Assembly: GCF_016406085.1 (NCBI RefSeq)
Contig: NZ_JAEHFJ010000005.1
Location: forward strand, 1-64,000
DNA from: Aureibaculum flavum
Lineage (GTDB): Bacteria; Bacteroidota; Bacteroidia; Flavobacteriales; Flavobacteriaceae
Length of the DNA stretch: 64,000 nucleotides
Reading direction: 5' to 3'
Part shown: one piece after another, positions 45,091 through 50,507 of the stretch
How positions within the stretch are numbered: position 1 is the first letter of the stretch
How the letters are laid out: every line of letters begins with the position of its first letter
The notes under the pieces: model-generated
The model's database searches: none
The model's input: the letters and a program-made list of their open reading frames with translations, nothing else
What the model was told of the DNA's origin: nothing
Position numbers and translations under genes: made by a program

Positions 45091-46320
45091 TTAAAAAGTA
45101 ACTGGCTTTTCAATAGTTTTTCCGTTTCTTTCAATCTTCACAGTTGTGGTGTCACCTGCATTAAACTTTGACAATGCTTTCATATATCCCATCATATCAG
45201 TAATTGGGTTGTCACCCAATTGGATAACAACATCGCCTTTTTGTAAACCAGCTTTTTGTGCAGGTTTTTCTTCGCTAACTCCATCAATTCGCATTCCCTT
45301 ACCATCAAACATATAGTCAGGCACAACACCTAATGTTACTTTAAAACGCGGAGCTTCATCACTTTCATTTTTAGTTTTTCTAAAAGGTAATTTACCATTA
45401 TCATCAAGATCAGTAATAATGTTGAAAATATAATTAGATATAGTTTCCATACCTTTATAATTCAATTTATCTGAATCGTCAGCAGGTTTATGATAGTCTT
45501 CATGTTGACCGGTAAAGAAGTGTAAAACGGGTATGTCATTTAAATAGAATGATGTATGATCAGATGGACCTACGCCAGACTCTTTAAGAATGAGTTTGAA
45601 ATTTTCGTTATATGCATTTACAATATGCTTAAAAATAGGTGAAGTACCTACACCATAAATGGCTAATGCATTATCTTCTTTTAAACGGCCAACCATATCC
45701 ATATTAATCATGTAATTGACGGAGTCAAGATTTATGGTTGCATTTTTAACAAAATAATTGGAACCTAATAATCCCATTTCTTCACCAGAAAAGGTCATAA
45801 TTAAATAATTGTTTCCTGTATTTACTTTGGTTAGTTTTTCGGCTAAGTTTAGTAAAGTAGCTACACCACTGGCGTTATCATCGGCACCGTTGTGTATTAA
45901 TTTTTCTTTTCCTCTATACAAAGAGCCTTCTTGACCATAACCTAAATGATCGTGATGAGCACCAATAATAATGGTCTGCTTTGCATTGTTATTGATGTAT
46001 CCTAAAATGTTTCTTCCTGTAATAGCTTTGTTACTTGTAGTGTCTGAGAAGTTAACTTTTCCGTGAGGATGTGTTTTAGGCGTAAAAGTAAAGTCTTGGA
46101 AATAGCCATTATTTCCTTTAGGTTCTAAGCCAATTTCTTTAAATCGCATAGCAATATATTCGGTAGCTAGTTTTTCACCTTCTGAGCCAGTTGCTCTACC
46201 TTCTAGTTTGTCATCTGCAAGATAGACAACGTCTTTATGAATTTGAGATTCTGTTTGTGCATTGGTTTTGCCAACAGAAAGCAAAGTAAAAAAAGCAAAA
46301 ATTAATATCCGATTCATCAT
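45091..46320 (-). CDS. Secreted M28 family aminopeptidase with C-terminal PDZ domain
   Basis: 409 residues from the ATG at 46320, which starts a signal peptide MMNRILIFAFFTLLSVGKTN; an upstream start at 46416 would put 32 polar residues ahead of it. The zinc-peptidase domain (about 30-310) shows IIIGAHHDHLGYG, HNGADDNASGVAT, TFSGEEMGLLGS, NMDMVGR and GQHEDYHKPADDSDK, the complete M28 ligand set. A PDZ domain (about 325-409: AGLQKGDVVIQLGDNPITD) ends the protein. It probably trims peptides in the periplasm or outside. Divergent from the PD40 lipoprotein gene. Confidence 0.93.
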   Translation of the reverse strand: MMNRILIFAFFTLLSVGKTNAQTESQIHKDVVYLADDKLEGRATGSEGEKLATEYIAMRFKEIGLEPKGNNGYFQDFTFTPKTHPHGKVNFSDTTSNKAITGRNILGYINNNAKQTIIIGAHHDHLGYGQEGSLYRGKEKLIHNGADDNASGVATLLNLAEKLTKVNTGNNYLIMTFSGEEMGLLGSNYFVKNATINLDSVNYMINMDMVGRLKEDNALAIYGVGTSPIFKHIVNAYNENFKLILKESGVGPSDHTSFYLNDIPVLHFFTGQHEDYHKPADDSDKLNYKGMETISNYIFNIITDLDDNGKLPFRKTKNESDEAPRFKVTLGVVPDYMFDGKGMRIDGVSEEKPAQKAGLQKGDVVIQLGDNPITDMMGYMKALSKFNAGDTTTVKIERNGKTIEKPVTF

Positions 46321-46428
46321 AATAGTATTATTTTTGGTAAAATTACTAAATTTTGCCCTCATAAAGGGTTTAATCAAAATAGTAGACTCGCTATGTTTTA
46401 AGCGGTTAATATTCAAACAATTAAATTA

Positions 46429-47550
46429 ATGAAATTTATATTTACCATATTGCTAGTATTCGTTTTATTCGCATGTAAGACGCAAAACACAACTCAAGCA
46501 GTTGTAAAGAAAACAACAGAAACAGCACCTGTTTATGTTAATTCTGAAGGAAATTCTCTCGTGTTTCCGGAAGAAAAGCATTTTAAATCTTTGCGTCAAG
46601 TAACTTTTGGAGGTGATAATGCAGAAGCGTATTGGAGTTTTGATGATAAACAACTTGTTTTTCAATCTAATTATAAGAAATGGGGTGTTGAATGTGATCA
46701 AATGTTTTTAATGGATGCTGATGAAACGTTAGATAGTTTGGTTGCACCTCCATTATTAAGTACAGGAAAAGGGCGTACTACATGTGCCTATTTTTTGCCT
46801 GATAATAAAAGTATTGTTTACGCCTCTACACATTTAGGAGGTGAAGAATGCCCTGACGCTCCTTTACGTAAAGAAGGGAAATATGTGTGGCCAATTTATG
46901 ATACCTATGATATTTTTGTAGCCGATTTAGAAGGTAATATAACGAAACAATTAACTACTGAAAAAGGGTATGATGCCGAAGCTACAGTTTCTCCTAAAGG
47001 CGATAAAATTGTATTTACTTCAGATAGAAGTGGCGATTTGGAATTGTATACTATGAATATTGATGGTTCAGATGTAAAACAAATTACAGATCAATTGGGG
47101 TATGATGGAGGAGCTTTCTTTTCACCTGATGGAACAAAATTGATATTCCGTTCTTCAAGACCTAAAACCGAAAAAGAAATAAAAGAATATAAAGACTTAT
47201 TGGCAGATGGTCTGGTAATGCCTACAGAAATGGAATTGTATATCTGTAATGCTGACGGTTCTGAACTACGTCAATTAACTAATTTAGGTAATGCAAATTG
47301 GAGTCCATTTTTTCACCCTTCTGGTGAGAAAATTTTGTTTTCTTCGAACTTTGAAGCAGAACGAGGTTTCCCTTTTAATTTATATATGATTGACCTTGAC
47401 GGAAAAAACCTAACGAGAATTACACATGGAGAAACATTTGATGCGTTTCCAGTTTTTTCAAATGATGGTACAAAATTAATTTTTTCTTCTAATAGAAATA
47501 ATGGAGGTGGTAGAGATACCAACTTGTTTATTGCAGAATGGCAAGACTGA
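46429..47550 (+). CDS. PD40/TolB-like beta-propeller lipoprotein
   Basis: 373 residues. Signal peptide with lipobox FAC (Cys16). The mature part is a six-blade-type propeller built of PD40 (WD40-like) repeats: DAEATVSPKGDKIVFTSDRS, YDGGAFFSPDGTKLIFRSS, NWSPFFHPSGEKILFSSN and DAFPVFSNDGTKLIFSSNRN. The protein ends DTNLFIAEWQD. The final 11 codons form the first unit of a tandem array of 66-bp repeats that continues well beyond the stop codon. Relatives include TolB-like and PSCyt/DPP-propeller proteins; no peptidase domain follows. Function unknown. Confidence 0.92.
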   Translation: MKFIFTILLVFVLFACKTQNTTQAVVKKTTETAPVYVNSEGNSLVFPEEKHFKSLRQVTFGGDNAEAYWSFDDKQLVFQSNYKKWGVECDQMFLMDADETLDSLVAPPLLSTGKGRTTCAYFLPDNKSIVYASTHLGGEECPDAPLRKEGKYVWPIYDTYDIFVADLEGNITKQLTTEKGYDAEATVSPKGDKIVFTSDRSGDLELYTMNIDGSDVKQITDQLGYDGGAFFSPDGTKLIFRSSRPKTEKEIKEYKDLLADGLVMPTEMELYICNADGSELRQLTNLGNANWSPFFHPSGEKILFSSNFEAERGFPFNLYMIDLDGKNLTRITHGETFDAFPVFSNDGTKLIFSSNRNNGGGRDTNLFIAEWQD

Positions 47551-48079
47551 AAGGATTGACAATCTGAAATATAAAAAGTAAGATACCAACTTGTTTATTG
47601 CAGAATGGCAAGACTAAAAGGATTGGCATTGTGAAATATCTAAATTAGATACCAACTTGTTTATTGCAGAATGGCAAGACTGAAAGGATTGACATTGTGA
47701 AATATCTAAATTAGATACCAACTTGTTTATTGCAGAATGGCAAGACTAAAAGTATTGGTATTGTGAAATATCTAAAGTAGACACCAACTTGTTTATTGCA
47801 GAATGGCAAGACTAAAAGGATTGGCATTGTGAAATATCTAAATTAGATACCAACTTGTTTATTGCAGAATGGCAAGACTAAAAGGATTGGCATTGTGAAA
47901 TATCTAAATTAGATACCAACTTGTTTATTGCAGAATGGCAAGACTAAAAGGATTGGCATTGTGAAATATCTAAATTAGATACCAACTTGTTTATTGCAGA
48001 ATGGCAAGACTAAAAGGATTGGCATTGTGAAATATCTAAATTAGATACCAACCTGTTTATTGCAGAATGGCAGGATTGA
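47515..48079. repeat. Tandem array of nine copies of a 66-bp repeat carrying the 3' end of the upstream gene
   Basis: Copies start at 47515, 47582, 47648, 47714, 47780, 47846, 47912, 47978 and 48044; the step is 66 bp except the first, which is 67. Copy 1 is the real gene end. Copies 2, 6, 7 and 8 are identical, the others differ by 1-4 bases and copy 9 is partial (ends with its TGA at 48079). Each unit starts with the 11 codons DTNLFIAEWQD and a stop, then about 30 further bases. Unit junctions carry a palindrome TATCTAA-A-TTAGATA. No spacers differ between units, so it is not a CRISPR. Confidence 0.97.
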
Positions 48080-48137
48080 AAATGTTGATTTTTTTTGAGA
48101 TATAAAATGTATCGTGTTTTTTCTTAAAAAAAGTTGT

Positions 48138-48410
48138 TTAAAAAATCAGAAATTTTACGCCTATTATTATAATTAGGGATAAAAGCAGAATTATGATAAT
48201 GTTTTTAATCAATTCAGCTCTTTCTTCTTGTTTAATTTTATTCCTGATTTTCACTAATTGTTCTGGTGTTGCTTTTCTTTTCAATAATTCACCAAACTCA
48301 CCTTTCAATCCTTTTAAGGGCATACTTCGTCTATCAAAGTGAATTAACTCTTTTTTTCTTGAGTTATTTCTCAGTGAGATTATCATTGATTGAACTATTC
48401 CGAAACTCAT
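48138..48410 (-). CDS. Small membrane protein of unknown function
   Basis: 90 residues. The N-terminus reads MSFGIVQSMIISLRNNSRKK, which I recognise as a recurrent flavobacterial start. It continues with a basic, helical stretch (about 35-70, GEFGELLKRKATPEQLVKIR) and one C-terminal membrane helix (about 70-90, IIILLLSLIIIIGVKFLIF). A cytoplasmic basic domain anchored by a C-terminal helix is the simplest topology. Its terminator-less 3' end abuts the repeat array. Function unknown; expression not supported by a clear promoter. Confidence 0.7.
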   Translation of the reverse strand: MSFGIVQSMIISLRNNSRKKELIHFDRRSMPLKGLKGEFGELLKRKATPEQLVKIRNKIKQEERAELIKNIIIILLLSLIIIIGVKFLIF

Positions 48411-48614
48411 AAACTAATTTTTAAGATGACCTTGTATTGTTCACTGGAGGAATAATGATTTGAATAAATTTAGTGGTTAAGATAATAATAATCAATTTAT
48501 CAAGCAAATTTTAAATTTTATCCACTAGCTTTCAAAATTTGCATGTAAAAGAAATATTCTTATTAATATCTGTTTAATTATTTTCTACTTTATACGCTTA
48601 CCCTAAAAGAACGC

Positions 48615-48622
48615 TATCTTTG
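48615..48622 (+). promoter_or_regulatory. Candidate -7 box for the radical SAM gene, nearly abutting the start codon
   Basis: TATCTTTG ends 4 bp before the ATG at 48627, in the same TTTGCATTATG context as rbfA, so the message may be leaderless. No -33 TTG at 19 bp. Confidence 0.5.
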
Positions 48623-48626
48623 CATT

Positions 48627-50507
48627 ATGCAACCGAAATTACTTTTAGTAACGCCACCCTTTACTCAGCTAAATACTGCGTATCCTGCAACTGCCTATCT
48701 TAAGGGGTTTTTGGAGAAACATGAGGTGTCTGTTGAGCACTGTGATTTAAGCATTGAGCTCTTTACAGCTATTTTTACTAGTGATTTTTTGCGTTCTATT
48801 TTTCAGGAAGCCGAAGATTTGGAGAATTATCATTATCCCGAGCTTAGTAAAATGAAGGAACACTATATTTCTAGGGTTGATGTGGTTCTTAATTTTCTTC
48901 AAAAACAGGATATTGAGACTGCATATAAAATCTTAGAAGCTGGTTTTTTACCATCAGGGCATAGGTTAATGAAGGTGAATACTGAAATAAAATGGGAAGT
49001 TGGAGCAATCGGTATAATAGATAAAGCAAAGCATTTTGGTACACTTTTTATTGAAGAAATAGGAGATTTTATTCATGCAAACGTAGATGAGTTTTTTGCA
49101 TTTACGAAATATGCCGAGCAAATTGGAACTTCGGCAAGTAGCTTTAATCAATTAGATGATTTTTTGCAATATCAGCCTACGCTTATTGAAGATGAAATGA
49201 TGAATATTTTGGAAGATCAAATTAAAACGCATGATCCTAATCTGATCTGTTTTACAATTCCCTTTCCTGGAAATTTATTTGCGGCTCTGCGTTGTTCTCA
49301 GTTTATTAAACAGTTTTTTCCGGACATTCATGTTGCTTTTGGGGGAGGATATTGTAACACAGAGCTCCGTTCATTAGAAGATTCTAGAATTTTTCAATTT
49401 GTTGATTTTATCTCATTAGATGACGGTGAAGGTCCCTTGCTAAAGCTGGTTAATTACCTTGAAGGCAAAAGTGATATAAACGAATTGGAAAGAACGTTTG
49501 TGTTAGAAAAGAATCAAGTAATTTATAAGAATAAAATACCTAATACTATTTACCATCATAAAAATTTACCCGCACCTAACTACTCAGGATTGCCGTTTGA
49601 TAAATATGTTTCTTTTTTGGATGTAGTAAACCCGATGCATCGAATGTGGACAGATGCGAGATGGAATAAGTTAACTATTTCTCATGGATGTTATTGGAAA
49701 CAATGTTCGTTTTGTGATGTAAACCTAGATTATATAGGTAATTATCAAAACACAACGGCTATTGATTTAGTAGATAAAATTGAAAAAATAATTAAAGACA
49801 CAGGTATTACAGGTTTTCATTTTGTTGATGAAGCAGCTCCACCTAAAATGTTACGGGCTCTATCAATGAAATTGATAGAAAGAAACCTAAACATTACTTG
49901 GTGGACAAACATTCGTTTTGAAAAGACATTTGACGCTGAATTATGTCAATTAATGGCAAAATCAGGTTGTATTGCTGTAACTGGTGGGTTAGAAGTGGCT
50001 TCGGATAGGTTGTTGGTTAAGATGAAAAAGGGAGTTGATATTGCTCAAGTTACGAGAGTCACTCATAATTTTTCAGAACAAAATATTATGGTTCATGCAT
50101 ATCTTATGTATGGATTTCCTACTCAAAATGAGCAAGAAACCATTGATTCATTGGAAGTTGTACGACAATTGTTTGAAAAAAATTGTATTCAGTCTGCATT
50201 TTGGCACCAATTTACTACCACTATTCACAGTCCTATTGGTCAAAATCCTGAACAATTTGGAATAAAAATAACAGGACCTGTTTTTGAAGGGTTTGCTCAA
50301 AATGATTTATATCATCAGGATCCAGAGGGAACTGATCATCCTAAATATACAAAGGGATTGAACCTTGCATTAAATAATTATTTAAATAAGACAGGGTTTA
50401 AAGAAGATTTACAAACTTGGTTTGATTTTCCAATTCTTAAAACCAGTCATCCCGAAGACTTAATTAAAAGTTTTTTATTAAAAAGTAGCACTTTAAAACA
50501 CGTTTAG
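48627..50507 (+). CDS. B12-binding-type radical SAM protein
   Basis: 626 residues. An N-terminal B12-binding-like domain (about 1-280: LLLVTPPFTQLNTAYPATAY and HVAFGGGYCNTELRS) is followed by a radical SAM core (about 335-560) whose cluster motif is C-x4-C-x2-C, GCYWKQCSFCD (about 354-364), rather than the more common C-x3-C-x2-C. GFHFVDEAAPP (about 397-407) and GLEVASDRLL are later core strands. The B12 domain may or may not bind cobalamin. No precursor peptide or methyltransferase partner is seen beside it. Substrate unknown; C-methylation or a ring/sulfur reaction are possibilities. Confidence 0.88.
   Translation: MQPKLLLVTPPFTQLNTAYPATAYLKGFLEKHEVSVEHCDLSIELFTAIFTSDFLRSIFQEAEDLENYHYPELSKMKEHYISRVDVVLNFLQKQDIETAYKILEAGFLPSGHRLMKVNTEIKWEVGAIGIIDKAKHFGTLFIEEIGDFIHANVDEFFAFTKYAEQIGTSASSFNQLDDFLQYQPTLIEDEMMNILEDQIKTHDPNLICFTIPFPGNLFAALRCSQFIKQFFPDIHVAFGGGYCNTELRSLEDSRIFQFVDFISLDDGEGPLLKLVNYLEGKSDINELERTFVLEKNQVIYKNKIPNTIYHHKNLPAPNYSGLPFDKYVSFLDVVNPMHRMWTDARWNKLTISHGCYWKQCSFCDVNLDYIGNYQNTTAIDLVDKIEKIIKDTGITGFHFVDEAAPPKMLRALSMKLIERNLNITWWTNIRFEKTFDAELCQLMAKSGCIAVTGGLEVASDRLLVKMKKGVDIAQVTRVTHNFSEQNIMVHAYLMYGFPTQNEQETIDSLEVVRQLFEKNCIQSAFWHQFTTTIHSPIGQNPEQFGIKITGPVFEGFAQNDLYHQDPEGTDHPKYTKGLNLALNNYLNKTGFKEDLQTWFDFPILKTSHPEDLIKSFLLKSSTLKHV

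Follow-up and report, generated by a model that had tools for sequence, protein, structure and literature searches.

Tandem gene-end copies with predicted hairpins across the stop codon of a PD40 lipoprotein gene in Aureibaculum flavum and other flavobacteria

According to PMC3733652, REPs are small hairpins, some of them mismatched, that lie mostly downstream of coding regions; some overlap or supply a stop codon, some occur in tandem, many are plausibly transcribed, and their tag is an unpaired GTAG or CGTC at the foot of the hairpin. Rickettsia palindromic elements (RPEs) are named in the same article. Small bacterial palindromic repeats are usually recognised by their genome-wide spread, whereas the repeat described here is bound to one stop codon. 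RPEs are small palindromic elements that occur in many genes and can lie within protein-coding ones. Mycobacterial MIRU/VNTR loci are made up of tandem units of about 50-100 bp between genes, present in variable number, at many loci and in some cases over stop codons. Integrative elements with the 3' end of a gene as attachment site supply a new gene end and displace the old one downstream.

The locus studied here lies in a window of 64,000 nucleotides from A. flavum (RefSeq assembly GCF_016406085.1, contig NZ_JAEHFJ010000005.1, positions 1 to 64,000; genome G000 below) and is organized as follows:

46429-47550, plus strand: PD40 beta-propeller gene for a putative lipoprotein of 373 aa, TolB-like (ORF; Pfam PD40, E 5.6e-38)
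47515-47581, plus strand: unit 1 (67 bp), the current gene end of 11 codons and TGA followed by a 31-bp spacer (S); equal 67-bp spacing in G007 and G009
47582-48043, plus strand: units 2-8, seven 66-bp copies beyond the gene, four of them identical
48044-48110, plus strand: unit 9, the final gene-end copy with its stop at 48077-48079 and a decayed spacer (model R1, 32.7 bits)
48138-48410, minus strand: small convergent ORF 3' of the array, without family match

The lipoprotein assignment is a prediction from an N-terminal signal and a Cys in the translation. The NCBIfam TolB propeller match to the protein stays below the family cut-off, and the closest named orthologue, that of Aureibaculum marinum, is 90% identical. 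TRF run on the window reports the array at 47514-48072 with a period of 66, 8.5 copies, 95% matches and a score of 1011; the three other arrays in the window reach 111 at best. Nine units of 66 or 67 bp span 47515-48110, each repeating the PD40 gene end, with copies starting at 47515 (the gene's own), 47582, 47648, 47714, 47780, 47846, 47912, 47978 and 48044. The repeated coding part comprises the last 11 codons, that is 33 bases, plus the TGA stop (36 bases). Units starting at 47582, 47846, 47912 and 47978 are identical 66-mers, and the ninth unit has decayed, with 16-19 differences from the others. As its units are near-identical and stand head to tail, the array is a minisatellite by that criterion. 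The first-pass annotation, made from the sequence alone, had described a tandem 66-bp array that repeats the 3' end of the gene eight extra times, and TRF and the unit starts confirm this. They also bear out its step of exactly 66 bp apart from a first step of 67 bp, and the near-identical spacers agree with its remark that variable spacers are absent. Recent expansion or homogenisation, likewise proposed there, is compatible with the four identical units, and the label minisatellite is correct as to form. The annotation was also right that a gene-end duplication has been multiplied in situ outside the reading frame. Stops interrupt all three forward frames across the whole array, which rules out a long coding repeat. 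The count of nine is taken from an assembly of 40 contigs. An assembly artefact nevertheless does not account for the existence of the array, because the corresponding site of the congener G009, assembled as a single contig, holds five gene-end copies spaced 67 bp apart.

All window units except the decayed ninth can be drawn as an imperfect hairpin. In general a unit comprises the 11 final codons, the stop and about 25-31 bp of 3' UTR, and an imperfect hairpin of 34-43 nt is its core. The consensus reads TATT G CAGAATG G CAA (loop) TTG A CATTCTG A AATA, and the loop differs in length between hairpins of the 37- and 43-nt types. In unit 1 the hairpin spans the stop codon, which is located in the loop or beside it: the last codons of the PD40 gene (..IAEWQD) make up the left arm, and the right arm lies in the 3' UTR. 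Four hairpins of the window are distinguished:

47529-47571, plus strand: hairpin 1, across the stop codon at 47548-47550 (R1 69.7 bits; RNA fold -9.0 kcal/mol, z -2.9)
47596-47638, plus strand: hairpin of unit 2 (R1 69.7 bits; fold -11.9 kcal/mol, z -3.9)
47662-47704, plus strand: hairpin of unit 3, intermediate between unit 1 and the others (R1 68.6 bits)
47728-47770, plus strand: hairpin of unit 4 (R1 64.5 bits)

The sequence of the unit 2 hairpin recurs at 47794, 47860, 47926 and 47992 (R1 69.7 bits each). Fold z-scores range from -2.9 to -5.1 for two window units, one Polaribacter unit and one Winogradskyella unit, and the array folded as a whole gives z -4.9 (20 shuffles). An Rfam 15 search of positions 46000-49000 returned six matches at E 10 or better, none of them anywhere near the gathering score, so that membership in a known Rfam family is rejected for this part of the window. 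An intrinsic terminator inside the array is rejected as well, the sole predicted site falling within the PD40 gene. Window positions 47538-47567 hold an overlapping mini-ORF (MARLKGLTI, then stop) that starts within the last codons; similar short ORFs are present in most carriers of the hairpin.

For comparison, 164 distinct orthologous gene ends were drawn from 247 loci, a sample enriched in carriers and partly gathered with the hairpin model. Counted without a sequence model, at least 12 of 14 pairs form in 34 of the 164 distinct gene ends versus 15 of 3280 mononucleotide-shuffled 3' UTRs. Our carrier set of 37 consists of these 34 ends minus L198 plus L121, L122, L050 and L142, which score 11 and were retained as model matches; eight other ends scoring 11 and L198 were omitted from the tree count given below. 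Given this enrichment, 37 of 164 is no estimate of prevalence. Carriers match their own gene end at 22-33 of 33 downstream positions, compared with at most 20 of 33 for the control, the locus's own upstream sequence; the downstream sequence of other loci is unsuitable for this purpose because it holds other arrays. One to eight extra gene-end copies are present in 32 of the 37 carriers, and 52 of the 62 steps from copy to copy measure 66-68 bp, six 60-61 bp and four 120-128 bp. Within the genus, a count that the first-pass annotation had asked for, there are nine copies in A. flavum, five in G009, two each in G007 and G016 and one in A. marinum (G011), and the gene end is single in the remaining genus loci read. 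Own copies also follow the gene end in Polaribacter, Winogradskyella and Psychroserpens, with up to seven R1 units in a Polaribacter-centred set of genomes (G470) and five each in G460 and G361. Polaribacter porphyrae, P. aquimarinus and Winogradskyella thalassocola are among the carriers in culture and differ in copy number. The gene-end array, which had seemed unfamiliar for flavobacteria, is hence not specific to the strain and is present in orthologues of several genera. The second hairpin unit at L042:1504-1546 equals window unit 1 over 43 nt, the host proteins being only about 79% identical. L065 has a degenerate gene-end copy (25/33) 321 bases past the stop and no hairpin at the stop.

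The hairpin is a covarying structure across genera, its pairing being maintained by changes on both sides. The alignment comprised 77 units from 36 loci, 52 of the units distinct, with L198 and L199 left out. Among the distinct units, 91.9% of paired cells can pair as against 89.4 +/- 0.3 after shuffling; 16 cells are doubly changed versus 2.0 +/- 1.3 in shuffles (0 of 500 reach 16), and five pairs have changes on both sides versus 1.5 (1 of 500 reaches five). The covariation score is 0.152 compared with 0.107 +/- 0.005 in shuffles (0/500) and at most 0.036 in slid controls. These figures are flattering, because the aligned units are kin and had been fitted to the structure; safer evidence comes from the slid controls and from individual changes. 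Such changes are the paired variants CAA/TTG, CAG/CTG and CGC/GCG across carriers and, in L102, a codon change in the left arm matched by a change in the 3' UTR. The doubly changed pairs could in part stem from template-switch correction of a quasi-palindrome. Right-arm columns, with the arm located by a pattern tolerating three mismatches, hold 0.84-2.0 bits across carriers (nine of the ten 1.2-2.0) versus 0.16-0.91 in the next ten bases. GAC, with a C able to close the loop, is the last codon of 29 of the 37 carriers and of 34 of the 118 other orthologues, shared ancestry included. On the sense strand, G-U outnumbers A-C by 35 to 8 cells; collapsed by lineage, the excess loses significance (19:15 against 8:15, P 0.18). 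An excess of G-U would point to the mRNA strand, yet it would not separate RNA from single-stranded DNA.

Among the genomes searched, strong matches to R1 are confined to the PD40 gene end. Matches occur in eight of 299 family genomes, one or two of them weak (G107 is weak), all at this gene end, and likewise in four of 17 genus genomes; in 15 of 16 further genomes the R1 bit scores are those of the gene-end loci. The Polaribacter-centred set (146 genomes) holds 18 strong carriers, all among the 56 genomes having the gene, and the 90 gene-less ones (gene threshold E 1e-60) are devoid of strong matches. Weak matches in six genomes of this set (E 1e-4 to 0.04) were not counted as strong carriers; G381 (L202) has a weak match (E 0.016) and no PD40 gene there. 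A Winogradskyella-centred set yielded matches in seven of 68 genomes, two of them weak. In the A. flavum genome itself, R1 finds the array only (best 21 and best 150 candidates scored), and BLAST adds nothing to the array but short matches with E values of 0.0097 or higher. A dispersed repeat is rejected on these grounds as far as good copies are concerned; with the best 21-150 candidates scored per genome, weak dispersed copies could escape. Phage and plasmid collections gave no match to the array. Viral contigs lack the PD40 gene and gave no match to two exact hairpin patterns and three matches to a third pattern, all without the left arm, and an origin from phage or plasmid is rejected on this basis. 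CRISPR is rejected because the spacers of the array are uniform.

The sequence after the last copy bears on the question of which gene end is the older one. Compared with the sequence after the stop codon of hairpin-less orthologues, it exceeds the shuffled maximum (one shuffle per carrier, plus 2) in 17 of 32 carriers. For 14 of these 17 the alignment between the flank of the last copy and the stop flank of a hairpin-less relative is in register to within 6 bases, a number that includes close kin (L109, L257 and L103; L181 and L182) and thus stands for fewer independent events; examples of flank matches are L192/L095, L189/L248 and L109/L107 over 80/80 bases. Usually 61-68 bp lie between the gene and the old 3' flank. 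As it is the last copy, rather than the first, that is in register with hairpin-less gene ends in these 14 carriers, the current gene end seems to be the one that was added. Gene end plus spacer have either been put before the old end or been removed in the relatives. The remaining carriers, including A. flavum, have no informative hairpin-less relative, and unit 9 of the window is probably a displaced older gene end, judging from other carriers. Spacers score at most 15.0 against hairpin-less 3' UTRs, the null maximum being 15.5 and the spacers being the shorter queries. Since spacers are unlike such UTRs, a simple tandem copy of the gene end with its native downstream sequence is rejected; against this rejection stands decayed spacer-like sequence seen by eye after the last copy in G007, L116, L121 and G470. 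The gene-end copies of one genome often have that genome's own synonymous variants, which speaks for duplication or conversion in place rather than for import. Within the 900-1500 bases read per locus we found no larger insert between copies.

The distribution of the hairpin is patchy. On a gene tree built without the last 14 residues (155 rows; a quick tree with many open branches), the carrier trait changes at least 30 times for 37 carriers, and a single origin would require 59 losses. Over 666 pairs, spacer similarity tracks similarity of the gene body only weakly (rho 0.15). In the 299 far pairs (body below 80%), 71% of the first 30 spacer bases are shared; the sequence after the last copy gives 56% over 194 far pairs, and the 3' UTRs of hairpin-less orthologues give 56% over 600 pairs drawn at random from all distances. 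L045 and two winogradskyellas have 27 of 30 spacer bases in common at 77% body identity, the spacer being of the CGC type. This patchiness fits a presumed transfer plus loss better than either alone; a single origin with 59 losses, homogenisation of arrays and selection on the hairpin could give the same pattern.

A second gene-end array in A. flavum lies at atpG, the gene for the gamma subunit of ATP synthase (Pfam PF00231), which adjoins the alpha-subunit gene:

L317:18107-18516 (contig C12 of G000; atpG at 257264-258121): atpG array, 55-bp units, 7.5 copies, across the stop codon

Apart from it and the PD40 array, 2.04 Mb of the strain's own genome (43%; 2628 ORF ends, some of them spurious) yielded no clear case. 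Among 30 atpG loci read, eight besides that of G000 have a hairpin or extra gene-end copies (G007, G009, G010, G001, G002, G005, G018 and, in another family, G038). The atpG hairpin pattern occurs in eight of 299 family genomes, each time at the atpG stop codon, and the backward control hits once in each of two genomes. The longest atpG array found, in G258 (L361), has nine 52-bp gene-end hairpin units after the gene. In L358 (G151), atpG ends in ..EALNN with a hairpin, and an ..EALNG-type end lies further downstream, as expected of a displaced end; this layout suggests that the last codons may have been replaced. The fold is less well supported at atpG than at the PD40 gene: the first atpG unit of G000 folds no better than its shuffles (z -0.44), two inner units giving -2.6 and -1.9, and the stem has one doubly changed pair (two cells) and a score of 0.103 versus 0.079 shuffled. 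By eye, the PD40 and atpG hairpins have similar tips with a short stem, a GA/GA mismatch, two pairs and a small loop. Of the 299 genomes, only G000 is on both the PD40 and the atpG list, and a common trans-acting factor is thus not indicated. Broader scans placed few other gene ends beside these two. A scan for the hairpin architecture over 1.24 Mb gave 79 matches, seven of them from the PD40 array, which is hardly more than the 48 of the reversed control. Scanning 1241 ORF ends on 60 stretches for own gene ends returned seven at 22/33 or more, namely the window, atpG and five near chance. On 100 stretches ten TRF rows cross an ORF end, and apart from the window and atpG these have periods of 377 (a single array reported in three rows), 186, 81 and 21. 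With a stricter own-end test, the same 100 stretches yielded the window alone, atpG being missed. Other tandem arrays with units 88-99% alike are also present in the A. flavum genome at L270:2843-3272 (125 bp), L294:7559-8365 (377 bp) and L405:12909-13457 (186 bp). The like layout at atpG suggests a class rather than a single curiosity.

Our preferred reading, to which we assign a probability of roughly 0.56, is that of a small, locus-bound gene-end element that is kept as a hairpin, has been gained by recombination and/or lost repeatedly, is expanded by slippage and probably acts as an RNA structure of the 3' UTR; its function and its mobility are both deduced. The element would enter by homologous recombination, in which the foreign gene body and gene-end copies pair with those of the recipient, and it would be lost by recombination between its direct repeats of 33-36 bp. 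Slippage would amplify and homogenise the units. Folding of the strand may be the reason why it is retained. The likeliest form is a series of hairpins in the 3' UTR of the lipoprotein mRNA, which would influence mRNA decay or bind a protein. The first-pass annotation had considered a transcript-end element, a good guess at what would be a role in mRNA; that the hairpin is missing from most species counts against its importance. A wider proposal is less likely than not: PD40 and atpG could be two unlinked members of a class of gene-end cassettes of about 50-70 bp, without a long gene of their own. Each would be restricted in its entry to the stop codon of a particular core gene, for which it would provide the last codons while displacing the old end; it would fold over the stop as a hairpin, pass from species to species and multiply in tandem.

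The steps just proposed for the preferred reading include transfer, and the same hairpin may have been inherited purely vertically, from an ancestral 3'-UTR hairpin and duplicate gene end that were mostly lost between direct repeats and never transferred. Direct repeats are expected to delete often, spacer-like remnants are visible by eye in L072 and L199 (L072 scoring at most 15.0 against the null maximum of 15.5), and one hairpin type is common to the winogradskyellas. Against strict inheritance speak the 59 losses demanded by the tree, the 27 of 30 spacer bases that L045 shares with two winogradskyellas at 77% body identity, a CGC-type spacer that also occurs in unit 2 of L126, and the identity of L042 unit 2 with window unit 1 over 43 nt. 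Mixed ancestral arrays as in L126 could still account for the L045 and L042 likenesses, and we regard a purely vertical history as unlikely. That the array is a neutral minisatellite, born of a chance duplication of the gene end and expanded by slippage with an incidental hairpin, would agree with copy numbers of nine, five and two among close species, with the homogeneity of the units and with the decay of the last copy. We hold it to be decidedly unlikely in view of the same position in 37 of 164 orthologues scattered over the tree, the nine of ten right-arm columns at 1.2-2.0 bits versus 0.16-0.91 beyond, the covariation, and a spacer unlike the 3' UTR of hairpin-less relatives.

Two further explanations attach the array to another activity. 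One insertion site, a gene end repeated on both sides, a mismatched hairpin and the patchy distribution would suit a substrate of single-stranded recombination or transposition (REP-, attC- or att-like), the array being integration scars. The genomes searched hold no strong copies elsewhere, phage and plasmid collections and viral contigs no true match and the 900-1500 bases read no larger insert between copies, and the loop differs in length between the 37- and 43-nt types, which makes such a site improbable. It is very improbable that the array serves to multiply an overlapping ORF of 7-9 residues, present in each unit and reaching from the last codons to a near-invariant TGA. This would account for the conserved A39, which is unpaired in the hairpin, and 33 of 37 first units start with ATG, 27 of these 33 ending at the conserved TGA, including the 6-nt shorter type; the four first units with GTG have the same TGA end by eye. 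Six of the 33 ATG units end elsewhere, however, the residues vary, 71 of 118 hairpin-less orthologues have an ATG in this position too, and inspection of the atpG array by eye revealed no ORF of this kind.

The preferred reading of a hairpin element bound to one gene end gives the locus a wider interest. Close relatives that have the same gene with one, two, five or nine end copies amount to a natural experiment, and the class, if real, would let one test cleanly whether hairpins of the 3' UTR are under selection as RNA elements or are selfish DNA. A description of such a gene-end element was not found in the limited open-access literature consulted, including passages of PMC3733652 and PMC1590033. 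The PD40 element seems to supply new last codons and recurs across genera, and its look-alike at atpG seems to do likewise. Among described systems, CRISPR arrays resemble the PD40 array in a repeated part of about 36 bp, a spacer of about 30 bp and a degenerate last repeat; here, however, the spacers of one array are nearly the same and have homologues in other species, and the repeats are gene ends. From the integrative elements at gene 3' ends it differs in that the added piece measures some 61-68 bp, has no integrase gene and recurs in tandem. MIRUs occupy many loci, whereas the PD40 unit is a copy of one gene's end, forms a covarying hairpin and sits at the orthologous place in several genera. 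RPEs likewise occur in many genes, and the PD40 element occupies one orthologous stop codon with the old gene end downstream in the array. REPs and BIMEs, as described in PMC3733652, share with the PD40 hairpin that they are small gene-end hairpins, in places tandem and in some cases across a stop codon. They are numerous and dispersed in the genome and have the GTAG/CGTC tag, whereas the PD40 hairpin belongs to one gene, contains that gene's own end and has the foot TATT/AATA, with no tag in its units or flanks. In their workings REPs remain the nearest kind, from which the PD40 hairpin is set apart by dispersal and tag.
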